This document shows, in pieces, positions 4,101-35,116 of a DNA stretch of 35,116 bases. The translations under genes were made by a program, and so were the position numbers. Where the stretch lies: positions 1 to 35,116 of the IMG/VR virus record IMGVR_UViG_3300035698_005325. The stretch is one strand, 5' to 3'. The stretch is from a virus. Under the pieces are notes generated by a model. The model had not been told where the DNA came from. It saw nothing but the letters and a program-made list of their open reading frames with translations, and searched no databases. Position 1 is the first letter of the stretch, and each line of letters starts with the position of its first letter.

Positions 4101-7100
4101 TATTTGAGATTGATTTTGATTTAATAGACAAAAAGATTGATGAGGGTGATCCTCTCTATAAGCATATTAAGTCAGCTTTAGAATCTGGTACAATACCAAC
4201 TGATTTTACTTATCGTGATAAAACTGTTAAGAATGGTTTAGGTAAAGTACCAGTAAAAGGAGTACTTTACAAAAATGGTAATAAGATTGTAGTGGATGAT
4301 GTCGAAGTAGCATTGTATATCCATGACAGTGACTTTACCAACTTCTCCGAAAAGGTTAAAGATCATGCTATTACAACTTTACTTGAACACAAGAAAGCTG
4401 TTATTGAAGCACACTTTAATGGTAGAGTATTGAAATCTGGATCATTGAATAGATCAGGTGGTCAGTTGAATATTGCATTCAATGATGATGGTTCATTTAA
4501 AGAAAACAAACTAAGTGATGTTATAGATAAGTATGATAAAATATCATTCATGTATGGTAGTGGGGTTAAGGATAGTAACCTTGCTTCTTATATGGATATT
4601 GATGGAGAGATGGCTGCTGATGTAATGGGTAATGGTTTTAGTGCTACCAGTGGTGCTATTTATGCTAGAGTTAGAAATGTTAATAACCAAGTATTCCCAT
4701 TAAGACTGCATGTTGATAATTTAAATGCTAAAGAAGCAGAAATTATCTATGACATATACTTAGATCTTTTAAAGAATGATACGGTCTGGAAAGCTCCTTT
4801 ATCAGATTCTATTAAAGCTAAGTTTGGTAATTTAGTTGGTGCTGACAACTATTTTGGTAAAGAGTTTAATAAACTTACTTATGAACATTTGTTAAATCAT
4901 TTAGTTTATAATGGTAAAAACGAAACAGAAGACAAGTTTAAATCCAGGTTATATAAAACTAAAGCTGGGTTTCATAAAACTGGTGGTGAAAGAAAAGCCA
5001 AGGTCATATTCGGTGATCAACAATTTGAATTAGCAAAGTTTGAAACTGAAGAGGTTAAAGATGCATTTGTAAAACATCTTACTACATTAAGAAGAAGACA
5101 AATCGATGTAAAGAGATTAAGTAGTAAGAAATATGTGAGACATCTTGTAACAAGAAAAGCATTAACTACTAACGCTGAAGTACCAAAAGGTAAAGCATTA
5201 GGAGAAGTGTTTATTCAGCCCACAGTCACCATGTCATCCACTTTAGTTGATCATACCAGTGAGGTACTGAGTAGAAACGAAGATCTCTCTAAGGGCATTA
5301 CAGATGCCATTGCTGAAGGAAGCGGTTTTACATTAGATGAAAACAAAAATGTTTATGTCGATTCAAATGGTGTAGAGTACAAAAGAGTATCCGATTTCGT
5401 AAATCCTAGAGAAAAACAAGATAGTAAGAATATATATCAGCTTACTGCTGAAAACATTAAATCTTTCGTTAGTAATCTATTTAAAAGTAAGAGTGTAGAA
5501 GCATTTGATAATAATGTTTATGGTAAATTACAAACTGAGATACAAAAAATAGTAGACAAACAATTAGGTAAAGGTGCTACTATTATAACAGATAAAGTTA
5601 TTGTTTTTGATAAGGTCAATAAAATTGCTGGAGAAATTCCAATTCTGGTTAAGACTAGAGACGGTAAATTGAATCTTATCTCTATTAGATCTTCTAAATC
5701 AGGTTTTGATTTTTACTCTTCTACTAAATATGGTAAGAGTCAGTTACAAACTGATAGTGAAACTATGAATATTTATGCTGATATGTTACTCAAGACTTAT
5801 GGGTTAAGAGTATCAAGCTTATCAGTAATAGGGATTAGAACTACATACAATAATGATAAATTAGAATCAGCAGAGTTTGTTAAGGTTAAGTCTTTGACTA
5901 GAAAAGATTCAGTTATTGTAAAAGAAATATTACCTACTGAAACAATAGCTGAACCAATTGAATCTGTTCCTGTAACTGAACCTGTTATTAATGAAAAACA
6001 AGCTGTTGATATAATTAATAACAATGAGTCGTATTCATTGACTCCAATAGAGGTTGCAATGAAAACTTCTATGTTAGCAATGAAGATGCAACAAGGTGGT
6101 AAGTTATCTCCATCAGAAGAAGTGTTCTATAAGAAACACAAGGTTGATATTGATACTCTTTTGAATGAATATGGAGGACAACCTGATACTCAAACTTATG
6201 ATGATATACCCGATACCCAAGACTTCGATATTGAAACCGAAGCTTTAAACAATCCCAAAGAAGAACCTAAACAAAAAGAACCCAAGGAAGAAGTTGAAGA
6301 CATAGAATTACCAGATACTTTAGATGAGGATATTGATTTAGATGGTTATCAACCACCATTTAAGATTGTTCCTATTCCAGATCCTATATCTGGAGACAAA
6401 GTATCTCAACAAGAATTGGATACTCTTAAATCCATTATACCTTATGGTGTAAAAGTTAACTTAACTGATAGTTTCTTAACGGTATTAGCAGGTGGTAAAG
6501 TCGGTGTTGGTAGATTCTTAAATGGTATAATTGATCTTCATAAGAACGCTCCAGAAGGTACTGGTTACCATGAAGGTTTCCACGCTGTATTTAGAACAGC
6601 TTTAACTTCTGAAGAAAAAGCTAACATTCAAAAGGAAGCTAGAGAGTTCTTTGGTAAAGTAGATGAAGATACTGTATCTGAAATGATTAAAGATTTTGGA
6701 TTAAGTAGAGAACAAGCTGAAGATCTTTATTATGAGGAATTGTTAGCTGATGAATTTGCTAGATATATGCTCAATCCAGAAAGATTTAACTTTACTGGTG
6801 AATATTCTAAAGGCATAACCGGACTATTTCAAAAGTTATGGGCTTGGTTAAAGACACTATTTGGTAAAACTGGTAACCTGGATAAGTTGTTTAATAGTAT
6901 TAGAAGAGGTGAACTTAGAGATAAAGTATCTAACGAAGATGGTACTCCATCTTACGCATTAGTTTATAAAGATTATACAGCTAAGCAAGTATATGAGATT
7001 ACTCAACAACTTGCAGCTTTTGCTATTAATACGGATATACAAACAAAAGAAGATTTAACAAAGATAGACTTTGATAATATAAAGAAAGGGTTAGCTTATC

Positions 7101-18718: not shown

Positions 18719-19051
18719 TTATGCTATTACTGGAACTTTCTTGCTTAGTTCCAGGTCTTTTATCTTTTTAGCTTTCTCGTTAAGGTAAATAACCTCTCCC
18801 GAGAAATCTATTGTAAACACAAGTTCTTTAATATCTTTAATTTCATTATAGCAATAACCTTCTAAAAGTAATGGTTTTCTAATATGAAGATATTCCATCA
18901 AATTGGATTTCATTTTTAAGAAAAAAGACTCCCTGTACTTATAATTATGCAACACAAAAGACCTAAATACATTGTACGAATCATCATCTCTACAGATATG
19001 ATCAACTATTTCTTTTTTTCTAACCAGATATGTAATTTTGTATTCTATCAT
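18719..19051 (-). CDS. Hypothetical protein, 110 residues
   Basis: Starts MIEYKITYLVRKKE. The start overlaps the 3' end of the uracil-DNA glycosylase gene by 32 bases, and the stop is nine bases before the ribonucleotide reductase gene, so it belongs to the same operon. It is a soluble, Lys/Glu/Tyr-rich alpha/beta protein with no motif I recognise. The central part is basic and aromatic (HNYKYRESFFLKMK). I propose no function. Confidence 0.65.
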   Translation of the reverse strand: MIEYKITYLVRKKEIVDHICRDDDSYNVFRSFVLHNYKYRESFFLKMKSNLMEYLHIRKPLLLEGYCYNEIKDIKELVFTIDFSGEVIYLNEKAKKIKDLELSKKVPVIA

Positions 19052-19691
19052 TTCTATATATATTTTCTATTGTTTTAAAATGACCATTACCAATAAACCC
19101 CCTAGCCATTGGTGATGGGTGAGGACTTTGTAAAATAGTATTTGTTTCATTAAGACAAGCCACAGCATAAGACTTGGCGTGGTTACCCCATAACAAGAAT
19201 GTTAAATTACCCATTTCAGCAATATCACAAATCATTGAAAATGTAAAATCTTTCCAAATCTTAACATGACTTGTTGGTCTATTGGCAACTACAGTCAATG
19301 CAGTATTCAATAATAATATACCACTATCCACCCAATCATCCAATCTGGGATTGTTTCTAATTGTTTCCAATTTTAAATTACTACTATATTCTTTAAATAT
19401 GTTTCTTAGTGACGGAGTAACTTTATTGGAACTAAAAGCTATTCCATCAGCAGTACCGTTGTAATAAGGATCTAATCCTAGTATTACAACCTTAATCTCA
19501 TTTAGAGACATCTTAAAAGCCCTAAACATAATATCGGTACTTGGATATACCTTATTGGTAGATCGTTCAATAGACAGGCTCTCAGCTACCTTTACGAGAG
19601 AGTCTATGTTTTTAGTAAACATTGGTAGCCAAGAGGAATGCACTTGACTCTTAACAATGTCTAAAACAATATCTTTCTTATTCAGTCCCAT
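19020..19691 (-). CDS. ung: Uracil-DNA glycosylase (family 1-like)
   Basis: 223 residues, close to the 229 of E. coli Ung. Removes uracil from DNA by cleaving the N-glycosidic bond. The water-activating loop is GLDPYY at 72-77 with catalytic Asp74. Phe86 (AFSS) should stack on the base, Asn129 (LLLNT) should read uracil, and His191 lies in the HPSP leucine-loop motif, followed by RGFIGNGHF. Two loop positions differ from the family's GQDPYH: Gln to Leu73 and His to Tyr77. The catalytic Asp, Asn and His are kept, so activity is likely. It sits with flap endonuclease and ribonucleotide reductase genes, consistent with genome maintenance during replication; crAss-like phages are known to carry Ung genes. 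Confidence 0.88.
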   Translation of the reverse strand: MGLNKKDIVLDIVKSQVHSSWLPMFTKNIDSLVKVAESLSIERSTNKVYPSTDIMFRAFKMSLNEIKVVILGLDPYYNGTADGIAFSSNKVTPSLRNIFKEYSSNLKLETIRNNPRLDDWVDSGILLLNTALTVVANRPTSHVKIWKDFTFSMICDIAEMGNLTFLLWGNHAKSYAVACLNETNTILQSPHPSPMARGFIGNGHFKTIENIYRNDRIQNYISG

Positions 19692-20343
19692 TGGCTATCC
19701 ATTTCTTTTCATGTTCTATGAATTCCTTGTTATTGAAAACTGACCATAATTCACTGTTGTCATCAATTTTCTCGCCAGTTAACTCTTCCAGCTTAGATTT
19801 GGCCATTGGGGTTTTATATAATGCTCCATAAATAGGAGAATTATCTGGTAAATCAAAGAACTCTTTAATTTTTAATTTGTATTCTTCTGGTAATTTAGAA
19901 TACTTACCTTCTGTTATTGTCTTATATATATCTATGTCTTTTTTATCAACTAAATCCAAAACTAATAATGTGTATTTACCAACTGCATCAAACTCGCATT
20001 TGAATTTACTACAACATATTGATTCAAAATTAATGTATTTTTCTCTAGTGCTGGGAGTGGTTAATATATAAAGCTTATTATCATCATTGTTCTCAGAGAC
20101 ATAAATGTTTATTATTTCTGGTCTAATGTCTATTTCCGCCCAGGGTAAATCCACTATGGAATCTACTACTAACGGAAACAATAAATAAGAAGCTTTATTA
20201 TTCATAAAGCATATATAAACATGTTTGTATTTGTATAAACCGTAAGATCTTTCTGTTCTTACTTCCTTAATTCTATCTTCATTAAATAATTGACCAACCC
20301 CTAAAGACGGGGTGTCATTACTTTCTTCCGTATATACAATCAC
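19678..20343 (-). CDS. Hypothetical protein, 221 residues
   Basis: Starts MIVYTEESND. The start overlaps the stop of the flap endonuclease gene (ATGA at 20340-20343), and its own 3' end overlaps the uracil-DNA glycosylase start by 14 bases, so it is tightly embedded between two DNA repair genes. The first 130 residues look beta-rich, with a Cys-Cys-x3-Cys cluster (ICCSKFKC). The last third is helical and charged. I recognise no family. A role linked to DNA repair or replication is suggested only by the neighbours. Confidence 0.65.
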   Translation of the reverse strand: MIVYTEESNDTPSLGVGQLFNEDRIKEVRTERSYGLYKYKHVYICFMNNKASYLLFPLVVDSIVDLPWAEIDIRPEIINIYVSENNDDNKLYILTTPSTREKYINFESICCSKFKCEFDAVGKYTLLVLDLVDKKDIDIYKTITEGKYSKLPEEYKLKIKEFFDLPDNSPIYGALYKTPMAKSKLEELTGEKIDDNSELWSVFNNKEFIEHEKKWIANGTE

Positions 20344-21053
20344 TCCAATATATTAAAAGGATCACTCACAGGTAGGGACAAGCCATTATCTGTGAAATCT
20401 TTATCTGTACGGTGTAAATATAATAGTCTCCAACTTTTATTAAATTCTGTTTTACCATTATCTTCACCAAAAAATCTACAGTATTCCAACAATACCGCAT
20501 CTATTAAATCTTCTTCTCCTTCACAATTCTTTAAGATTATGTCGGCTTTTTTATTACCAATTCCTTTAATACCTTTAATATTGTCTGCTACATCCCCCGT
20601 CAACATCTGTTTGTATAAGAAAGCAATACCTTCTTCTTGGGTTATATACTCGGATCTATGTTTAAGATAGTTATAAAATTCACCACCTATTTGGTCAAGA
20701 TCTTTGTCTATACGTGCTACTACAACTTCATATCCCGCTTCCCTATATTTAGTGGCCCAATATGTACATAAATCATCTGCCTCGATACTTGGATACAGTA
20801 CTGCTTTGTACCTCTTAATTAATATTTCTTTTAATTCATTAACAAACTCGGGTCTTTTCTCCGGCCTGTTAGCTTTGTATATGGAACCTGGAATATCCAT
20901 TCTCCAACTATTACCCTTACTCAAACATACTAGAAATTTATGTGGATTCACATTATTCAATATGTTTGAGCAAAAAGTAATCAGGGTCTTTTCAGACAAT
21001 TCGATTGTGTTTTTTGAACATATATAACACAAACTGTCTGCGTCAATAATCAA
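20340..21053 (-). CDS. 5'-3' exonuclease / flap endonuclease (PIN-like plus helix-hairpin-helix)
   Basis: 237 residues. The PIN-like nuclease fold has a full set of acidic metal ligands: Asp4 (MIIDAD), Glu91 with Asp93/Asp94 (SIEADDL), the D116-K-D118-L-D120 cluster, and Asp154/Asp157 in GDVADN. The last leads straight into the DNA-binding helix-three-turn-helix IKGIKGIGNKKA. This is the order seen in T5 exonuclease and the N-terminal domain of DNA polymerase I. It should remove 5' flaps and RNA primers at the replication fork, a job the family B polymerase in this window cannot do itself. It lies 14 bases downstream of the last gene of the ubiquitin-like cassette and overlaps the following unknown gene. 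Confidence 0.88.
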   Translation of the reverse strand: MIIDADSLCYICSKNTIELSEKTLITFCSNILNNVNPHKFLVCLSKGNSWRMDIPGSIYKANRPEKRPEFVNELKEILIKRYKAVLYPSIEADDLCTYWATKYREAGYEVVVARIDKDLDQIGGEFYNYLKHRSEYITQEEGIAFLYKQMLTGDVADNIKGIKGIGNKKADIILKNCEGEEDLIDAVLLEYCRFFGEDNGKTEFNKSWRLLYLHRTDKDFTDNGLSLPVSDPFNILE

Positions 21054-21067
21054 TAATTTTAGAGGTT

Positions 21068-21688
21068 TCAGTTTACTAACATTATATTTTTACTTAGTAA
21101 ATCGTAATGATTTTCCAAGTCCTCTTCTCTCTTGTTTAATTCTCTTGTAGTTGCTAGATTAATCTTATAATCTGATAGATTTAATAATACATCATCGGAA
21201 GGTCCAGCTGAAAATGAAGGGTAAGGGTATCCATTTTCAGAATCACGCCATAATATAACAGTATAGGGTAATCTTGAATATTCAACTAACCCGATACTGT
21301 TCATTTTATATCGCTTTACCTCTTGTTTTTTTATACACACTATTTTCGAAAATCTAATGCTAGTATTTTCTACTATACATTCAATCCCTCTACCTGATAT
21401 TAAACTTGGGTTAAGACCTAATTCACCGTGATGTATTGAAAAAGTACCATTAGATAATAATAACGGTATTTCTGTCAATAATAATTCACTGGATAAATAA
21501 TCCTCGACACATTTACTTAATACAGAAGGATTTGATCCATCAGAGCGCACACCAATTCTTAAATCTTTACCATTAAGAGTAAGGCGAGGTATTGCTGAAA
21601 TTGGTATTAAATCTTCCAAATTTTGTTCCCTTAGAAAACTTTCATTTAATACAGGAACTTTAAAAGAACTTACAAATATATTATTCAT
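21068..21688 (-). CDS. Unknown protein coupled to the E1-like gene (206 residues)
   Basis: I place the start at ATG 21688 (MNNIFVSSFKVP), which overlaps the end of the E1-like gene by 8 bases (ATGAATAA); a longer frame begins at 21712. It is a beta-rich protein with repeated Leu/Ile-Pro turns (DLIPISAIPRL, EIPLLLSNG) and a charged helical C-terminus. No active-site pattern is evident. Its tight translational coupling to the E1-like gene makes it a candidate part of the conjugation cassette, for example a target, adaptor or ligase-like factor. It is equally possible that it belongs functionally with the flap endonuclease that follows. Confidence 0.65.
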   Translation of the reverse strand: MNNIFVSSFKVPVLNESFLREQNLEDLIPISAIPRLTLNGKDLRIGVRSDGSNPSVLSKCVEDYLSSELLLTEIPLLLSNGTFSIHHGELGLNPSLISGRGIECIVENTSIRFSKIVCIKKQEVKRYKMNSIGLVEYSRLPYTVILWRDSENGYPYPSFSAGPSDDVLLNLSDYKINLATTRELNKREEDLENHYDLLSKNIMLVN

Positions 21689-22355
21689 AACTGTAAATAA
21701 AGTTAACACCATTTAAAACAATATGGAATGGTACAGGTCTATCATTTTCACCTGTTGCTAGATTGGTAAGAAAAGCATTTAGCATGTGAACCATCATACC
21801 TGCGGTAATCATACCAGTCTGGCTTGTTGATTTATAATTACACACTCCATCAGGTACTTCTTCATCAGAAAATAACCAATTTTTTTCATATTTATCAGCA
21901 TTTTCAGGAGTCACTAAAAACATTTCACTTAGTTCCGCTGCTTGCCTCCCATCAATAAAAGCTAATGGTGCTTCTTGCTCTCTCCATTTAGTAAACATGA
22001 GTCTTCTAGCAGCCATATTATCAAATGCTGAAAACATGATAGGTGTAACCATCCCATCATTATCATACCTATAATTAATTTCAAATATTGAGACAGATGA
22101 GAATTCCTTGACAATTTCACCCAGAGCTTCCACCTTAGCTTTACTCATATCTTTTTCTCTAACTAATTGGCCACCAAGATTGGTATCATCATAATTATCG
22201 AAATCATATAAAAATACTGAATGACCACATCTAGCTAGTGGTAGAGTGAGCCAGGAGCCTATGCCCCCAGCACCACCTACTACTACATCATGTTTTTGAG
22301 AGTTCCAGGGAGCTGCACTAAATCTTGTTTGTAAAGTTTCTAATGTTTCTATCAT
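21681..22355 (-). CDS. E1-like ubiquitin-activating enzyme (ThiF family)
   Basis: 224 residues. ThiF/E1 Rossmann fold: GGAGGIGSW at 27-35 binds ATP, the strand ends in Asp51 (YDFDNYDDTNLGGQ, close to the family's D-x-D...NL-x-RQ pattern), and FSAFDNMAARR at 108-118 matches the region that recognises the second nucleotide side. Cys172 (DGVCNYKSTSQTG) is the likely catalytic cysteine that takes the modifier as a thioester; a Cys followed by a Lys-Thr/Ser-rich helix start is usual in bacterial operon-type E1 proteins. It lacks the CxxC zinc pairs of MoeB/ThiF. With the modifier, E2-like and JAB genes just upstream, it forms a compact ubiquitin-like conjugation cassette like those described in bacterial and PRTRC-type operons. 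The gene ends in an 8-base overlap with an unknown gene. Confidence 0.85.
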   Translation of the reverse strand: MIETLETLQTRFSAAPWNSQKHDVVVGGAGGIGSWLTLPLARCGHSVFLYDFDNYDDTNLGGQLVREKDMSKAKVEALGEIVKEFSSVSIFEINYRYDNDGMVTPIMFSAFDNMAARRLMFTKWREQEAPLAFIDGRQAAELSEMFLVTPENADKYEKNWLFSDEEVPDGVCNYKSTSQTGMITAGMMVHMLNAFLTNLATGENDRPVPFHIVLNGVNFIYSYE

Positions 22356-22370
22356 ATTTTTTATTTTAAT

Positions 22371-23450
22371 TTATGCGATTGTATCTACTTCTATTTTTGA
22401 TAGAACTTTTCGATAAATCAATTCAAATAAGTTTTGGTATTCCTCATCTTTCCAATATTCAGAATTCATTAAGGCTTCAATAATATTAAGTACCTTAATA
22501 TAAAAAGGTTCTAATTCTGTTTTATCTAACAGATATGATATATTAAAGTTTTCCTTCAAAGTAAACATAAACTGTTGAGTATAGTTATTAGCGGATTTTG
22601 TTGATTTCTCATATGCCATAATATATTCTACAATAAATATTCTAATTCGAGGTACAGATGTGGCAAGGGTCTCTTCTAAATTAAGCTTCTCGTCTTTCTT
22701 TGCTAGTTCTTTCTTTGCTAGTTCTTTCTTTTTAGTTGTAGAATGATGAGTTTTATAATTTCCTGGCCAATTAGGTCCTGTTCCATATTGATTCGGATAT
22801 ACTACAGGGCTGGGTTTCAATTTTGTAATCCTATCTGTCATTTCTTGTATCCTATTCGTCCCAACAACTATGAGATCTACAGAAACAATTTCGATTATAG
22901 TATTATCTACCTCTTCGGTTTCTGTACTGAATAAACCCTTGAACCAAGAACCAATTTCCAATGTACCCTTAATTTCTTTCTTGACCGGATAAGATATTTT
23001 AGCTACCCAATTACCTATATCTTTTGTTGAAATCACTATACTGAGGAACCCTTTTGGGCTATTTGGGGTTGCATCGTTAATATCTGTAATATCCGTAGCA
23101 CTGTAGTAAGCTCCTCCTGAAAGGCTATAATGAGTGTGTAACATTCCAATTTTAAATCCAGCTTCTGCTCTTTCAGCAATAAACTCCAGTCCTTCTGGAG
23201 ATTGATTAGGTTTAAATTCAGTTCCGCCAGCAGTTCCAATATCCAGTAAAAGAAACTCATCCAAACGAATATCATACAACTCTGGATTATCTTCTCTAGC
23301 TTCGTATTTGTATGATACATAACCACTCCATTCTTTACCATTCTGTAATGTGTGATAAGTATGGAACTCAGTATATTGCTTATACTGTACGATGCATCTG
23401 GATTCTTTATCCAGGTTAAACTGCAATTGAGGTACTTCTGATTGTATCAT
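22371..23450 (-). CDS. JAB/MPN (JAMM) metallopeptidase, deubiquitinase-like
   Basis: 359 residues from ATG 23450; an in-frame ATG at 23477 would give 368 but overlaps the E2-like gene by 62 bases. The JAMM zinc site is complete: Glu40 (GKEWSGYV), His105-x-His107, then nine residues to Ser117-x-x-Asp120 (SATD). The peptidase domain covers about residues 20-160. A Lys-rich linker made of a 15-base tandem repeat follows, then a helical domain of about 110 residues. JAMM peptidases remove ubiquitin-like modifiers from targets or trim modifier precursors. Next to E1- and E2-like genes, that is the expected role here. The modifier has a short tail after Gly75 that could be its substrate. Confidence 0.82.
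   Translation of the reverse strand: MIQSEVPQLQFNLDKESRCIVQYKQYTEFHTYHTLQNGKEWSGYVSYKYEAREDNPELYDIRLDEFLLLDIGTAGGTEFKPNQSPEGLEFIAERAEAGFKIGMLHTHYSLSGGAYYSATDITDINDATPNSPKGFLSIVISTKDIGNWVAKISYPVKKEIKGTLEIGSWFKGLFSTETEEVDNTIIEIVSVDLIVVGTNRIQEMTDRITKLKPSPVVYPNQYGTGPNWPGNYKTHHSTTKKKELAKKELAKKDEKLNLEETLATSVPRIRIFIVEYIMAYEKSTKSANNYTQQFMFTLKENFNISYLLDKTELEPFYIKVLNIIEALMNSEYWKDEEYQNLFELIYRKVLSKIEVDTIA
22694..22731 (-). repeat. 15-bp tandem repeat, 2.5 copies, inside the JAB gene
   Basis: The unit CTTTCTTTGCTAGTT (plus strand) occurs at 22694-22708 and 22709-22723, followed by 8 bases of a third copy. In the protein it encodes a repeated Lys-Lys-Glu-Leu-Ala block in the linker between the peptidase domain and the C-terminal helical domain. 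The exact identity of the copies suggests a recent slip duplication. Confidence 0.8.
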
Positions 23451-24705
23451 TTTTTCTTTCTTTTTTCTTATTTTCATTTAATTTGTTTTGTTGTGCTAAA
23501 TGTTTTAACACTATTACATTATTTACCAAAGTGTGTATTGAGGGAATAGGATATTTTTTAATATTATCAACCTCAATATCCTCAAATATTAATTCAGGTT
23601 TAATTCTTTCCCCATTAAAATTCATACCCTTTATAGTTTGATCAAAAGATTCTTGGATCGTATCCTTATCGAATTTTTTGATTTTTCTATAATAGCTAAA
23701 CCCATCATAATAGGCTACAAAACCCAATTCTATTGTTATTTCTGATGACTGATCTCTTAAAGTTCTAATATCTAAGTTTCGATTTTTGAGTATATTGTTT
23801 AATTTAGGCATTAATCCCTTTTCATAACCATTTGGTGTTAAATATGTATCTATTATACCAGAATATATATTCTTATTAATATTCCCAAATCTTATATGTG
23901 GTCCACCATCTATACTCTCCCAACCTACTGCACTACCTAGATTACTAAGTAGTATTAACATGAGATCAGGATTAAATTCATCGTTTTTATTAATTTTTGC
24001 TGTAATTCGTTTTATATTACTGTTGCCGAAACAGAACGGTACGAACCTAGAGAATCTTGAACCCTCGATATGACTATGAGTATATCCAGCTAGAAATTCA
24101 TTAGCTTCAAACTTAGTCCTCATCGCTGAGATTTTTATATCAGAGAAGTTTAAATTCATATCCAGTAACCAGAAAAACTCATAGATAGTGTGTTCTCCAT
24201 CATATGAGTTTGTCATTTTTGTTTCTGGAAATCTTAACTTTAAACAGGTTCTATCGTTTTTATTTTTTAACTCATACTCATAATCCAAATCTACTAAAAT
24301 CTCTTTAAAGATCTTGGATTTATTCTTATTGTTTCGTAAAGTTATAAAAGTTTTTATATCTTTTTTAGCCTGAGACACAATAAGAATAGTTTGATCAATC
24401 TCCGCACTATAATCTATTAGTTCTTCAGGAAAATAAAGATTACTTAGATCATAATCTTCTTCCTTCAAACTAATATTTTTTAAAATAACAAAATTGGATA
24501 CTGGGGTACACTTCCATATTGTATTTAATACTTTGACATTTTCCCCAATTCTTTGTAAATGTATAAATTCTTCCTTGTTTTCGTTAGGATACCCTCGTAA
24601 AATACTAGCTTTAACTTTTATTTTCTCACCTTCTGGAAGTTCTATTACAACATTTATCTTTTTTAATTCCTCTTTTATTTTGCTTATATAATCTTTAGCA
24701 TTCAT
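23416..24705 (-). CDS. E2-like ubiquitin-conjugating enzyme with extra domains
   Basis: I place the start at ATG 24705 (MNAKDYISK), giving 429 residues. The ATG at 24744 lies inside the loop of a terminator hairpin and is unlikely. The key stretch runs from a strand pair (FFWLLDMNLNFSDIKIS) through LAGYTHSHIEG (His210, His212) to FVPFCFGN with Cys225. This resembles the E2 arrangement of strand, HPN-type motif, then catalytic cysteine. LGSAVGWESIDGG follows, like the helical C-terminus of the fold. An N-terminal region of about 150 residues and a C-terminal region of about 150 residues are extra and unassigned. The position between modifier and JAB/E1 genes supports the call. I am moderately sure; the HPN motif is not canonical. 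Confidence 0.6.
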   Translation of the reverse strand: MNAKDYISKIKEELKKINVVIELPEGEKIKVKASILRGYPNENKEEFIHLQRIGENVKVLNTIWKCTPVSNFVILKNISLKEEDYDLSNLYFPEELIDYSAEIDQTILIVSQAKKDIKTFITLRNNKNKSKIFKEILVDLDYEYELKNKNDRTCLKLRFPETKMTNSYDGEHTIYEFFWLLDMNLNFSDIKISAMRTKFEANEFLAGYTHSHIEGSRFSRFVPFCFGNSNIKRITAKINKNDEFNPDLMLILLSNLGSAVGWESIDGGPHIRFGNINKNIYSGIIDTYLTPNGYEKGLMPKLNNILKNRNLDIRTLRDQSSEITIELGFVAYYDGFSYYRKIKKFDKDTIQESFDQTIKGMNFNGERIKPELIFEDIEVDNIKKYPIPSIHTLVNNVIVLKHLAQQNKLNENKKKERKNDTIRSTSIAV

Positions 24706-24727
24706 ATTGTTTCTATTGTTAAAACAG

Positions 24728-24755
24728 AAGAAGGGGGTTTTCATACCCCCTTCTT
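24728..24755 (-). terminator. Strong intrinsic terminator between modifier and E2-like genes
   Basis: An 11-bp perfect stem (AAGAAGGGGGT with ACCCCCTTCTT on the minus strand) encloses a 6-base loop ATGAAA, followed by CTGTTTT. It starts about 50 bases after the modifier's stop and ends 23 bases before the E2-like start. That leaves little space for a separate promoter, so it probably acts as a partial terminator within the operon. Confidence 0.8.
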
Positions 24756-24773
24756 ATTAATCTATCATTCGTA

Positions 24774-24794
24774 ATATTACCATATAGGCAATAT
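24774..24794 (-). other. Small RNA hairpin in the 3' UTR of the modifier gene
   Basis: Read on the minus strand, AUAUUGCC pairs with GGUAAUAU (8 bp including one G-U) around a UAUAU loop. The G-U pair appears only in the minus-strand RNA. It lies between the modifier stop and the terminator, and could stabilise the modifier mRNA 3' end or be a processing site. Confidence 0.35.
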
Positions 24795-24806
24795 ATGATT
24801 CAATAC

Positions 24807-25049
24807 TTAGCATGATGGGATGGGACCCATTTTCTGCTGCACATTAGTCACCTGAAGGGTGATATTACCTCCTGGCAGTTGCATATCAGGAGTGTAAGTG
24901 CTACGCCCTACTGTATAGTTCACGTTGGTAAAGCTCTGACCATTACTATTCATTTCTACCAAGAAATCCGACAGGTTTGTAGGATCTTGAAAGAAGTAAT
25001 CTGTACTCTCACCATCAAAGGTAAGGACTTTAATTTTTCTTGTAATCAT
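24807..25049 (-). CDS. Ubiquitin-like beta-grasp modifier protein
   Basis: 80 residues. The predicted order is strand-turn-strand (RKIKVLTFDGESTDYFF), helix (NLSDFLVEMNSNG), strand (NVNYTVGR), then MQLPGG, a last strand (NITLQVTN) and a basic tail QQKMG. This is the beta-beta-alpha-beta-beta layout of ubiquitin-like proteins. It resembles bacterial operon-type modifiers, in which an LP-G-D/N turn precedes the final strand. The tail continues five residues beyond Gly75 and ends in Cys80 (GPIPSC), so trimming to Gly75 may be needed. At about 41% G+C it stands out from its roughly 30% neighbours, suggesting codons tuned for high output. The start overlaps the RusA-like gene by 20 bases, and a terminator follows. 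Confidence 0.65.
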   Translation of the reverse strand: MITRKIKVLTFDGESTDYFFQDPTNLSDFLVEMNSNGQSFTNVNYTVGRSTYTPDMQLPGGNITLQVTNVQQKMGPIPSC

Positions 25050-25623
25050 TTTCTTTTACTAATTTTAACTTAACTTCTAAACTTACATGTTCCTCGTTAT
25101 GAAACTTGATTGTATCGGAACAACCTCGATAAATGTCTGGAGCGTCACTAGATATGATCTTTAACTCCTGTAATAAATCTTCGATTATCTTTCCAATCAA
25201 CCAATGATTTCTCACATCGGGAATTATTTTTTGCTCTCTAGGATAAATGAATGTTATATGCAAAGCATAATAACTATCACCTCTACTTGGGATAGTATCC
25301 ACTGGAGACAAATTCTTAAAGAACGGGGTAAAATAAGCATGATATAAATCTACAACTTGCTTTCTCTCCCTATAATGCATTCTAGCATTGTAAAGATCCT
25401 GCCCATTGAGAACTGTATCATTTATTTTACCTTTAATTAATGGTTCATTTGTTGTGGTGTCAACAAGGAGAATCTTTCTACCTATCTTCTTCTCAATTAA
25501 TTCTAAATCCTTATACTTTTTAGGTAGTTTACCCCTGTTTTTAGCTTCCCAATATCTATGGGTTGCTTTTGTTAGTTTATATTTATTCTTAAATTCATCT
25601 ATTCTAATATTGAATACATCCAT
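25030..25623 (-). CDS. Possible RusA-like Holliday junction resolvase
   Basis: 197 residues. The C-terminal half fits the RusA pattern: a strand (YYALHITFIYP), then IIPDVRNHW at about 134-141 in place of the family's D-x-D-N, a helix KIIEDLLQEL, the SSDAP segment with Asp160 in place of the conserved DD, and a final strand (HVSLEVKLKLV). Asp136 and Asn139 are kept, but the second Asp of the first motif is Arg138, so catalysis is uncertain. The first 80 residues are basic and unassigned. It sits between the primase and modifier genes, overlapping both. A junction-resolving or branched-DNA-binding role would suit a replication operon. Confidence 0.4.
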   Translation of the reverse strand: MDVFNIRIDEFKNKYKLTKATHRYWEAKNRGKLPKKYKDLELIEKKIGRKILLVDTTTNEPLIKGKINDTVLNGQDLYNARMHYRERKQVVDLYHAYFTPFFKNLSPVDTIPSRGDSYYALHITFIYPREQKIIPDVRNHWLIGKIIEDLLQELKIISSDAPDIYRGCSDTIKFHNEEHVSLEVKLKLVKENDYKKN

Positions 25624-26558
25624 GTTCTAGCTTTTGACATACCATAAGCTTTTATAAAATCACTTATGTCTTTCTCCTCTTTTAAAAATAAGCTAGTTAG
25701 ATCATATTTTAAAGCAATTTTGGTCGAATTGTCTATTCCGGTTTGATCGTTATCATAAAATATATAAATCTTTTTAAACCGACTCTTCAATTCAAATATA
25801 ATTTTTTCAGATAACTCTAAGTTTTCAGTATGAGGGGCGACACTTGAAATACCCATCATATACAAACACATTACATCCTTTAAAGACTTGGTAATAATCA
25901 GGATTTCCCCTGTTTCATGTAATTGATTCCAACCCTGAAACCTATCCCTTCTGGTATTACCGATAAATTTAAACGCTTTATTGTAATATGGTCTATATAT
26001 CTTAATACCATAATCAAACTCATAAGCATAAGCATACTTATGACAAACAAAATGGTGTTCTCCTATTATGTAGCCACGTATAGCATGTACTTTAAATCTT
26101 TTTAAACAATCAATATCAATACCATACTTATACCAAAAAGCTAAGTCTTCCTTAGAAAATTTACACTTCTCTATATCTATTACAGACTGCTCTCTTTCTT
26201 CAAAAGGCTTAACTTTTTTTGGTATAACAAGCTTTTGAATCTTATTCCCTAGTTCAAAATCATTCCAAATTCTATTGATCGCATCAAGAAAACTCAAACT
26301 AAATAAAACCATTACATAATCTATAGCTCCTAAAATCTCGTCTTTTGTGAAATCTCTATAATAAAGATTGCCGGAACTTGATATTTTAATTATAACTGAA
26401 GGATTATTATCTGATCTTAATTCGGATTTGAACTTTTTCCCTATTACAAAAGAAGTTTCAATATACTTTCTGAAAATATCTTCTTCGTTGATTCTTTCTA
26501 GTAATTCTTCCTTAGAGTGTGAACTTTGAATTATCTGATTCCACGCCATCCTCTTCAA
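25599..26558 (-). CDS. DNA primase with TOPRIM domain
   Basis: 319 residues. The N-terminal part (about 40-100) has the strand pattern of the primase zinc-ribbon region (FKSELRSDNNPSVIIKI, then GNLYYRDF), but the zinc cysteines are missing. A TOPRIM domain follows: strand ILIITKSLKDVM at 219-230, then YDND at 268-271 with Asp269 and Asp271, and KDISDF near 296-301. The usual catalytic Glu of the first TOPRIM motif is Lys224. Similar substitutions occur in some phage primase-like proteins, so RNA primer synthesis is likely but not certain. It overlaps its upstream and downstream neighbours and sits close to helicase and polymerase genes. Confidence 0.75.
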   Translation of the reverse strand: MKRMAWNQIIQSSHSKEELLERINEEDIFRKYIETSFVIGKKFKSELRSDNNPSVIIKISSSGNLYYRDFTKDEILGAIDYVMVLFSLSFLDAINRIWNDFELGNKIQKLVIPKKVKPFEEREQSVIDIEKCKFSKEDLAFWYKYGIDIDCLKRFKVHAIRGYIIGEHHFVCHKYAYAYEFDYGIKIYRPYYNKAFKFIGNTRRDRFQGWNQLHETGEILIITKSLKDVMCLYMMGISSVAPHTENLELSEKIIFELKSRFKKIYIFYDNDQTGIDNSTKIALKYDLTSLFLKEEKDISDFIKAYGMSKARTWMYSILE

Positions 26559-34460: not shown

Positions 34461-35116
34461 TTAATTTAATTTCCACCAACCTTTATTATCAAGCTGATGC
34501 CATTTTAATTTCTTACCTCGATAGTCTTTATCTTTCCTGTTAAGAATAATAGGTTTCCACAACCAAAGAACTGTAAGATCTTTATGGCCTCTCATTTCTT
34601 TTTGAAGCTTCCACCACTGAGATTCTTTATCGGACTTATCAAACCATCCAACCATTCCAGGATTATATGTTTGAATAGCAACTACACCACCAGTAAAATC
34701 ACCATACTCAGCAGGGAATGCGCCAGTAATAAATGAAATACTTGTAATAGCTGCAAAAGGTAGCTCATCGGCAGAGCCTCTTATCTTCACTCCATCAACA
34801 TAAGGTTGGAATCCCGAACCCCTAGCTCCTCTGGAAGAGATACTACCGCTACGCTCATCTAAGACCAATCCAGGGGTGGCTAAAGCAACTTCTTGAAGTC
34901 TTCTAGCACCCATTTGAGTTAGTTGTTGTTTATCCCAAATAGTTTGTACTACTGTATTGTCTAGGTCGATAGGACTTTGACTAACAATGGTAATCTCATC
35001 AATACCAGAAGTATTAAGTTTAACATATTGGGTTTGTCCTACACCAACCTTTGTTAGAGCAATACAAATTGGTTCATTATCACTAAACACCACTACTAAA
35101 TAAGATCCAGCAGTGA
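34461..35116 (-). CDS. TonB-dependent receptor plug-domain protein without barrel (5' end beyond window)
   Basis: The frame stays open through the window edge: codons upstream of the GTG at 35093 read AGSYLVV, so the true start lies outside. The visible 218 residues hold a TonB-receptor plug: IDEITIVSQSPID, LQEVALATPGLVLDE, ISSRGARGSG, PYVDGVKIRGS, ITSISFITGAFPAEYGD, FTGGVVAIQTYNP. These follow the order of Bacteroidota SusC-like plugs. After the plug comes a Trp/Lys-rich tail of about 65 residues instead of the 22-strand barrel. The region is GC-richer than most of the window. The plug was probably taken from a host receptor. A role in blocking receptors or TonB, and so superinfection, is a guess. 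Confidence 0.82.
   Translation of the reverse strand, partial: TAGSYLVVVFSDNEPICIALTKVGVGQTQYVKLNTSGIDEITIVSQSPIDLDNTVVQTIWDKQQLTQMGARRLQEVALATPGLVLDERSGSISSRGARGSGFQPYVDGVKIRGSADELPFAAITSISFITGAFPAEYGDFTGGVVAIQTYNPGMVGWFDKSDKESQWWKLQKEMRGHKDLTVLWLWKPIILNRKDKDYRGKKLKWHQLDNKGWWKLN

Follow-up and report, generated by a model that had tools for sequence, protein, structure and literature searches.

The cassette and its protein families

The IMG/VR viral record IMGVR_UViG_3300035698_005325, analysed over its full 35,116 nt (hereafter the window), carries on its minus strand a compact cassette of five open reading frames (ORFs) that we consider, with a probability of roughly 0.78, to encode a ubiquitin-like conjugation pathway of a phage. 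Along the coding strand it comprises a ubiquitin-like modifier (Ubl), an E2-like protein, a JAMM peptidase, an E1/ThiF enzyme and a fifth, coupled gene. The ORFs are present and tightly packed where an original prediction had placed them, and the motifs that it named (GGAGGIGS and Cys172 in the E1, HSHIEG and FCFGN in the E2-like protein, and the JAMM zinc site) have all been verified. Direct support for the pathway comes from the gene order, the conserved residues, the fold model of the Ubl, the family membership of the E1 and JAMM proteins and a hairpin between two of the genes. Residue conservation was counted over 71–79 distinct sequences per family.

The Ubl precursor (24807..25049, minus strand) is 80 aa long. 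It aligns with a domain of about 90 residues at the N-terminus of the crAss001 gp79 family, and a profile of this domain built without the window protein finds the window protein with E 2.4e-4 (E 3e-16 once it is included). This profile succeeded where direct tblastn of phages with the 80-aa protein had returned chance matches only; Ubl sequence profiles yielded no informative match in PDB, Pfam or NCBIfam. A first alignment had made gp79 the counterpart of the window's RusA-like protein (see below), an assignment that was dropped once gp79 was recognized as the Ubl. The AlphaFold (AF2) model, with a mean pLDDT of 77, runs strand-strand-helix-strand-strand-strand and ends in a loose tail, and the 50 best solved structures returned by Foldseek all have a ubiquitin-type fold (ubiquitin, NEDD8, SUMO, ISG15, UBX and designs; best E 1.6e-4, TM 0.6–0.7). 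A glycine at the end of the domain (Gly75, codon 24825-24827) is conserved in 71 of 71 sequences. The beta-grasp modifier with a conserved C-terminal glycine that had been proposed is therefore borne out by the model, by its structural matches and by the glycine itself.

This glycine is preceded by serine in 65 of 70 distinct tails and is never the last residue of the protein. Short Ubls end 1–5 residues past it (KSGE, KSGI, KSGK, AAGH, the window's KMG-PIPSC and also those of loci L126, L145 and L160); most members have long variable tails of 53–221 residues past the glycine, and about twelve phages, the window among them, have no tail domain. Because the glycine is never terminal, maturation is implied, presumably by the JAMM peptidase, and on a simple reading the Ubl may be made in a masked form that a peptidase has to process, by analogy with eukaryotic ubiquitin and SUMO. 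A SAP/HeH reading of the tails found no support in Pfam and was dropped. In one locus (L087, 6328-7266) the tail holds a ribosomal L7/L12 C-terminal domain (PF00542, E 3e-10), which recalls ubiquitin-ribosomal protein fusions. In another (L069, cr106_1, 6000-6540) a gene read by eye from the sequence as an HNH-type endonuclease stands between a Ubl ending in KSGKF and its detached tail ORF.

The E2-like gene (23416..24744, minus strand) encodes 442 aa, or 429 aa from position 24705; the latter start is the likelier, since a strong hairpin holds the ATG at 24744 in its loop. In the 442-aa numbering an HSH motif occupies residues 223-225 and is followed by Cys238 (codon 24031-24033), which is Cys225 in the 429-aa numbering of the original prediction. 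Across the cassette the catalytic residues are invariant despite very low sequence identity among loci, and this family is a case in point: homologues share 14–24% overall identity with the window protein, yet Cys238 and Gly240 are found in 74/74 sequences and His225 in 73/73. The core of the AlphaFold model (residues 170–280, pLDDT about 90) consists of a helix, three long strands, the HSH...Cys loop and two helices, which is the order expected of a ubiquitin-conjugating (UBC) domain. When compared with BFVD, the model retrieves phage proteins only, the named ones from crAss-like or unclassified phages; sequence profiles of the E2-like family likewise had no informative match in PDB, Pfam or NCBIfam. 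The idea that the protein is a degenerate JAMM, sharing the HSH motif, was rejected, as the profile match is not significant and the predicted elements differ. The protein is probably the E2 of the cassette.

The JAMM/MPN metallopeptidase (22371..23477, minus strand; 368 aa, alternative start 23450) has a zinc site composed of Glu49, His114-x-His116 and Ser126-x-x-Asp129, the histidine-to-aspartate part of which lies at 23091-23138. Glu49, Ser126 and Asp129 are each conserved in 74/74 sequences, His114 in 74/75 and His116 in 72/72. The Prok-JAB family (PF14464) was matched in 27 of 28 relatives, and a profile comparison with protein A of the PRTRC system gave E 9e-7 at 91% probability. The full zinc site claimed at the outset is thus kept across the family, and the complete, invariant JAMM site marks the protein as a predicted processing or deconjugating peptidase.

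The adenylating enzyme of the E1/ThiF superfamily (21681..22355, minus strand; 224 aa) matches PF00899 with E 1.3e-13. Its GxGGIGS motif lies at 22254-22274, and Cys172 (codon 21840-21842) is conserved in 77/77 sequences, so that an E1 with a nucleotide-binding motif and a catalytic cysteine is present at the sequence level. Its profile relatives in the PDB are MccB (the best, E 3e-12), UBA5, UBA1, NEDD8-E1, ThiF, MoeB and Cap2. The profile of PRTRC ThiF is matched with E 4.5e-17 and 98.8% probability, Cys172 aligning with the PSC motif of that family, and this match, together with PF00899 and the cysteine, supports the E1/ThiF identity. The TIGR03736 model of PRTRC ThiF itself scores 21 bits (cut-off 144.75), the NCBIfam ThiF/MoeB model scores 48 bits against a cut-off of 159, and the CxxC zinc motif of ThiF/MoeB is absent from all 85 E1s.

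The coupled gene (21068..21712, minus strand; 214 aa, alternative start 21688) overlaps the E1 gene and occupies the slot of crAss001 gp75. It was not matched by a gp75-family profile, and whilst the fifth gene of the original prediction holds by position and overlap, which also underlie its equivalence to gp75, it does not hold by profile.

Regulation, gene order and genomic setting

Between the Ubl and E2-like genes lies a terminator-like hairpin, a putative attenuator (24728..24755, minus strand), which contains the ATG at 24744. On the coding strand it forms 11 pairs followed by a T-rich tail, with a fold z of -5.5. In a uniform scan, 46 of the 71 distinct loci had a terminator-like element between Ubl and E2, whereas the counts for the remaining four junctions were 1/70, 0/71, 1/71 and 1/70; such elements also turned up in 128 of 8149 background tiles and in 2 of 700 shuffles. 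The hairpin recurring at this junction is a newly observed regulatory feature. It suggests that partial termination supplies the modifier in excess of the enzymes, as a stoichiometric tag requires. The ratio of non-synonymous to synonymous substitution rates (dN/dS) is below 1 in every computable gene comparison among eight pairs of loci. The E1 and JAMM genes are the most constrained (0.04–0.30), and the E2-like protein and the coupled gene the least, the E2-like protein (0.2–0.86) being the fastest evolving of the core four.

The cassette is widespread among divergent phages. With the E1 as query, tblastn found 78 records, including the cultured crAss001, DAC15/17 and PhiCrAssBcn and the FpV4-type phages of Flavobacterium. 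A single-query search of viral contigs with the window E1 gave no confirmed match, and a profile search of viral contigs added 80 more loci with flanks. Using iterated profiles, the full order Ubl–E2–JAMM–E1 was found on one strand in 80 of 87 E1-bearing sources; in the remaining seven the block is cut by a contig end. The recurrence of this order and of the catalytic residues in about 70 divergent loci indicates that the cassette is not a product of chance. In crAss001 the annotated order is primase, gp79, gp78, the metalloprotease gp77, the 'thiamine biosynthesis' protein gp76, gp75 and uracil-DNA glycosylase, and much the same block is seen in the annotated regions of cr111, cr85, cr128, FpV4 and bajarodcaudo virus 1. 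Public annotation of the cassette is confined to 'thiamine biosynthesis ThiF' and 'metalloprotease', the Ubl (gp79) and E2-like protein (gp78) of crAss001 being 'hypothetical'. No description of the cassette was found in open-access crAss papers or open-access full texts, subscription literature being beyond the scope of that search. Short contigs from metagenome-assembled genomes labelled Clostridium and Spirochaetia carry the complete cassette (L089, L090) or the E1 and coupled genes (L088); these are probably misbinned phage.

The cassette has been found to sit among genes for DNA replication and recombination, as had been proposed. Upstream of it in the window is a well-supported DnaG-type (Toprim) primase (25599..26558, minus strand), and the Ubl gene is closely preceded by a primase gene in 66 of the 69 loci with sufficient flank, at a median gap of 66 nt. 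Downstream is a flap/5'-3' exonuclease (20340..21053, minus strand; PF02739 3e-10, PHROG 107 6e-47), and an exonuclease follows the E1 in 69 of 76 loci; neither flanking gene is ever on the opposite strand. These two flanks of the original prediction stand, whereas its RusA-like resolvase between primase and modifier (25030..25623, minus strand) is a weak assignment (PHROG 1682, E 6e-4). A uracil-DNA glycosylase gene (19020..19691, minus strand; NCBIfam ung models up to 3e-47) lies farther downstream; across the loci such a gene is upstream of the cassette in 21/69 and downstream in 35/76. The window operon also encodes a polymerase, a DnaB-type helicase, a Sak4-like ATPase and ribonucleotide reductase, and with the primase, exonuclease and glycosylase these justify the term 'crAss-like replication operon'. 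The crAss-like nature of the genome is in turn attested by an ORF of 3900 aa, the first 2602 aa of which, used as query, match mainly crAss-type phage proteins, including the RNA polymerase-associated protein/zincin protease of Carjivirus communis. This giant transcription-module protein and a replication block homologous to those of known members place the genome in the Crassvirales; its structural genes lie outside this 35-kb record.

Comparison with known conjugation systems

The closest parallel is the PRTRC system of plasmids and integrative and conjugative elements, which comprises proteins C (Ubl), F, B (E2), A (JAMM) and ThiF (Iyer, Burroughs and Aravind 2006, row 6d, PMC1779556). A PF14460 search of the genomes at hand gave no match, and the PRTRC proteins used for comparison were therefore drawn from plasmids. 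Their loci have the order E-C-F-B-A-ThiF, such that the relative order Ubl–E2–JAMM–E1 is common to both systems; the E1 and JAMM proteins are related by profile, both E1s are devoid of CxxC, and PRTRC blocks too adjoin partition and ssb genes. In contrast, the E2-like family gave no match to PF14460 of protein B in Pfam or NCBIfam searches of 61 relatives, no cassette family matched PRTRC E or F by profile, no gene lies between the phage Ubl and E2, and no ParB-family partner was found among the cassette neighbours searched. Peculiar to the phages are the long variable Ubl tails, the masked glycine, the Ubl–E2 hairpin and the replication operon. Since the Ubl and E2 families, the partner genes and the setting differ, the phage cassette is PRTRC-like in its logic, whilst membership of the PRTRC group was rejected on account of the Ubl and E2 families.

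The antiphage Bil operons (BilABCD) share the four-part logic of Ubl, E2, JAB and E1, but PADLOC gives only BilD (2.5e-5, for the crAss001 E1), leaving BilA, BilB and BilC unmatched, and Bil is used against phage whereas the present cassette is carried by phage. Type II CBASS, with Cap2 and Cap3, has E1-E2 and JAB chemistry in common with it, and generic E1-E2 profiles weakly touch the phage E1; the phages differ in having separate E1 and E2 genes and a dedicated Ubl, and no CD-NTase was recognized in the window. Lambdoid and T1 phages have a tail cluster in which the Ubl of TAPI and the JAB of TAPK are predicted to act by cleavage at glycine, with no E1 or E2 (Iyer 2006, PMC1779556). That cluster belongs to tail assembly, in contrast to the crAss-like cassette, which has both enzymes and lies in a replication operon. 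The 'ThiF' (gp76) and 'metalloprotease' (gp77) of Crassvirales annotation are the same genes as those of the window, their function being mis- or under-annotated.

Proposed pathway, targets and alternatives

The E2 fold, the order of the reaction steps, JAMM maturation, attenuation, lysine conjugation and the targets are what we infer in the following scheme. The beta-grasp modifier would be made as a precursor with its C-terminal glycine masked by extra residues (PIPSC in the window). The JAMM peptidase would strip the residues beyond the glycine and could later deconjugate. The E1 would adenylate the exposed glycine carboxylate and take the modifier onto Cys172, from where the E2-like protein would receive it on Cys238 and pass it to target lysines, the leaky hairpin after the modifier gene keeping the modifier in excess of the enzymes. 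Among prokaryotes, complete E1–E2–Ubl–JAMM pathways have been described in elements of plasmids and in operons for defence; here an apparently complete tagging kit would be kept within the replication genes of a large family of viruses of gut and environmental Bacteroidota. The finding corrects the thiamine annotation, and cultured carriers such as crAss001 make a ubiquitin-like system of bacterial viruses directly testable with laboratory strains, offering a route to the role of Ubl conjugation in DNA replication that is also hinted at by PRTRC elements.

Several points weigh against a conjugation pathway. Foldseek found no significant solved structure for the E2-like model (UBE2L6 is at rank 22, E 2.1), and it is for this reason that the E2 identity, which the original prediction had asserted, is graded as probable: the invariant cysteine, the operon slot and the UBC-like order of elements speak for it, and the want of a significant fold or profile match speaks against it. 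The window Ubl has Met-Gly in place of Ser-Gly as well as a unique tail. The phage Ubl gave no PF14454 match to PRTRC protein C in 53 relatives, and HHalign was not significant for that pair nor for PRTRC-B and the E2-like core (P 0.05). As the loci were gathered via the E1, co-occurrence of the cassette genes is conditional on that gene, and when the primase serves as the anchor, just 3/80 loci contain the cassette, one of which is truncated past the Ubl; the primase family therefore extends well beyond the cassette. Finally, the cassette has no recognized E3 or substrate, and the pathway is one predicted from sequences and models.

If the cassette does conjugate its modifier, the fact that highly divergent crAss-like phages keep it within their replication/recombination operon makes proteins of phage or host that act on phage DNA the likeliest targets. 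The most far-reaching reading, held tentatively and at rather less than even odds, is that crAss-like phages of the crAss001 (Steigviridae) and FpV4-type lineages possess a dedicated Ubl pathway in the replication operon. It would have Ubl and E2 families of its own, a masked or tail-fused modifier matured by the JAMM peptidase and a conserved attenuator that yields modifier in excess, and it would control phage DNA-transaction proteins much as SUMO/ubiquitin control the replisome, as the viral equivalent. The same chemistry could instead be aimed at host proteins, in counter-defence or takeover of the cell, and the confidences of the two accounts overlap because they share it. We regard the host-directed version as somewhat unlikely: the fast evolution of the E2-like protein could fit an arms race, and Ubl conjugation in bacteria is known from anti-phage defence (PMC10097602), but a constant place in the replication operon of nearly all loci and the slow evolution of E1 and JAMM are unlike mobile accessory anti-defence genes and favour DNA-transaction proteins over pure counter-defence, and PADLOC matches nothing beyond generic E1-E2, BilD and JAB models.

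More doubtful still is that the E1 and JAMM proteins act on the Ubl whilst the E2-like protein is some other cysteine enzyme or a scaffold, the Ubl being modified or ligated otherwise (MccB-like, or to a small molecule or lipid). MccB is indeed the best structural profile match of the E1, and the E2-like model has no significant fold match; against this stand the invariant cysteine and histidine, the slot between Ubl and JAMM, as for PRTRC-B, and the UBC-like order of predicted elements. Moreover, MccB works on a short peptide rather than a beta-grasp protein. It is improbable that the JAMM peptidase merely splits the Ubl from a C-terminal partner domain, with conjugation secondary or absent. 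The long tails of most Ubls, including the one with an L7/L12 domain, would suit such processing, but it needs no E1 or E2-like enzyme, yet both are always kept, and the dozen or so phages without a tail domain include the window. Least credible is the thiamine or sulfur-carrier biosynthesis (ThiF/ThiS) of public annotation, to which the Pfam ThiF superfamily, the beta-grasp partner and the name in the records point. The low NCBIfam score and the missing CxxC motif speak against a thiamine role; in addition, JAMM and E2-like genes are always present, the attenuator-like hairpin sets the modifier gene apart, and no ThiG-, ThiH- or ThiI-type gene was recognized in the window or in the annotated regions of its relatives.

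A few minor observations concern single genomes. The jumbo Xanthomonas phage PhiXhv-15 (L094) encodes a related ThiF protein (E 2e-29) that follows an 892-aa protein of no assigned function and lies beside topoisomerase genes; cassette profiles found no Ubl, E2 or JAMM there. Cassette genes are split by group I introns in a few loci, namely the JAMM gene of L049, L061 and L076, the E1 gene of L038 and the E2 gene of L068. At the edge of the window record, an ORF at 34461-35093 contains a TonB-dependent receptor plug domain (PF07715, E 2.9e-9).

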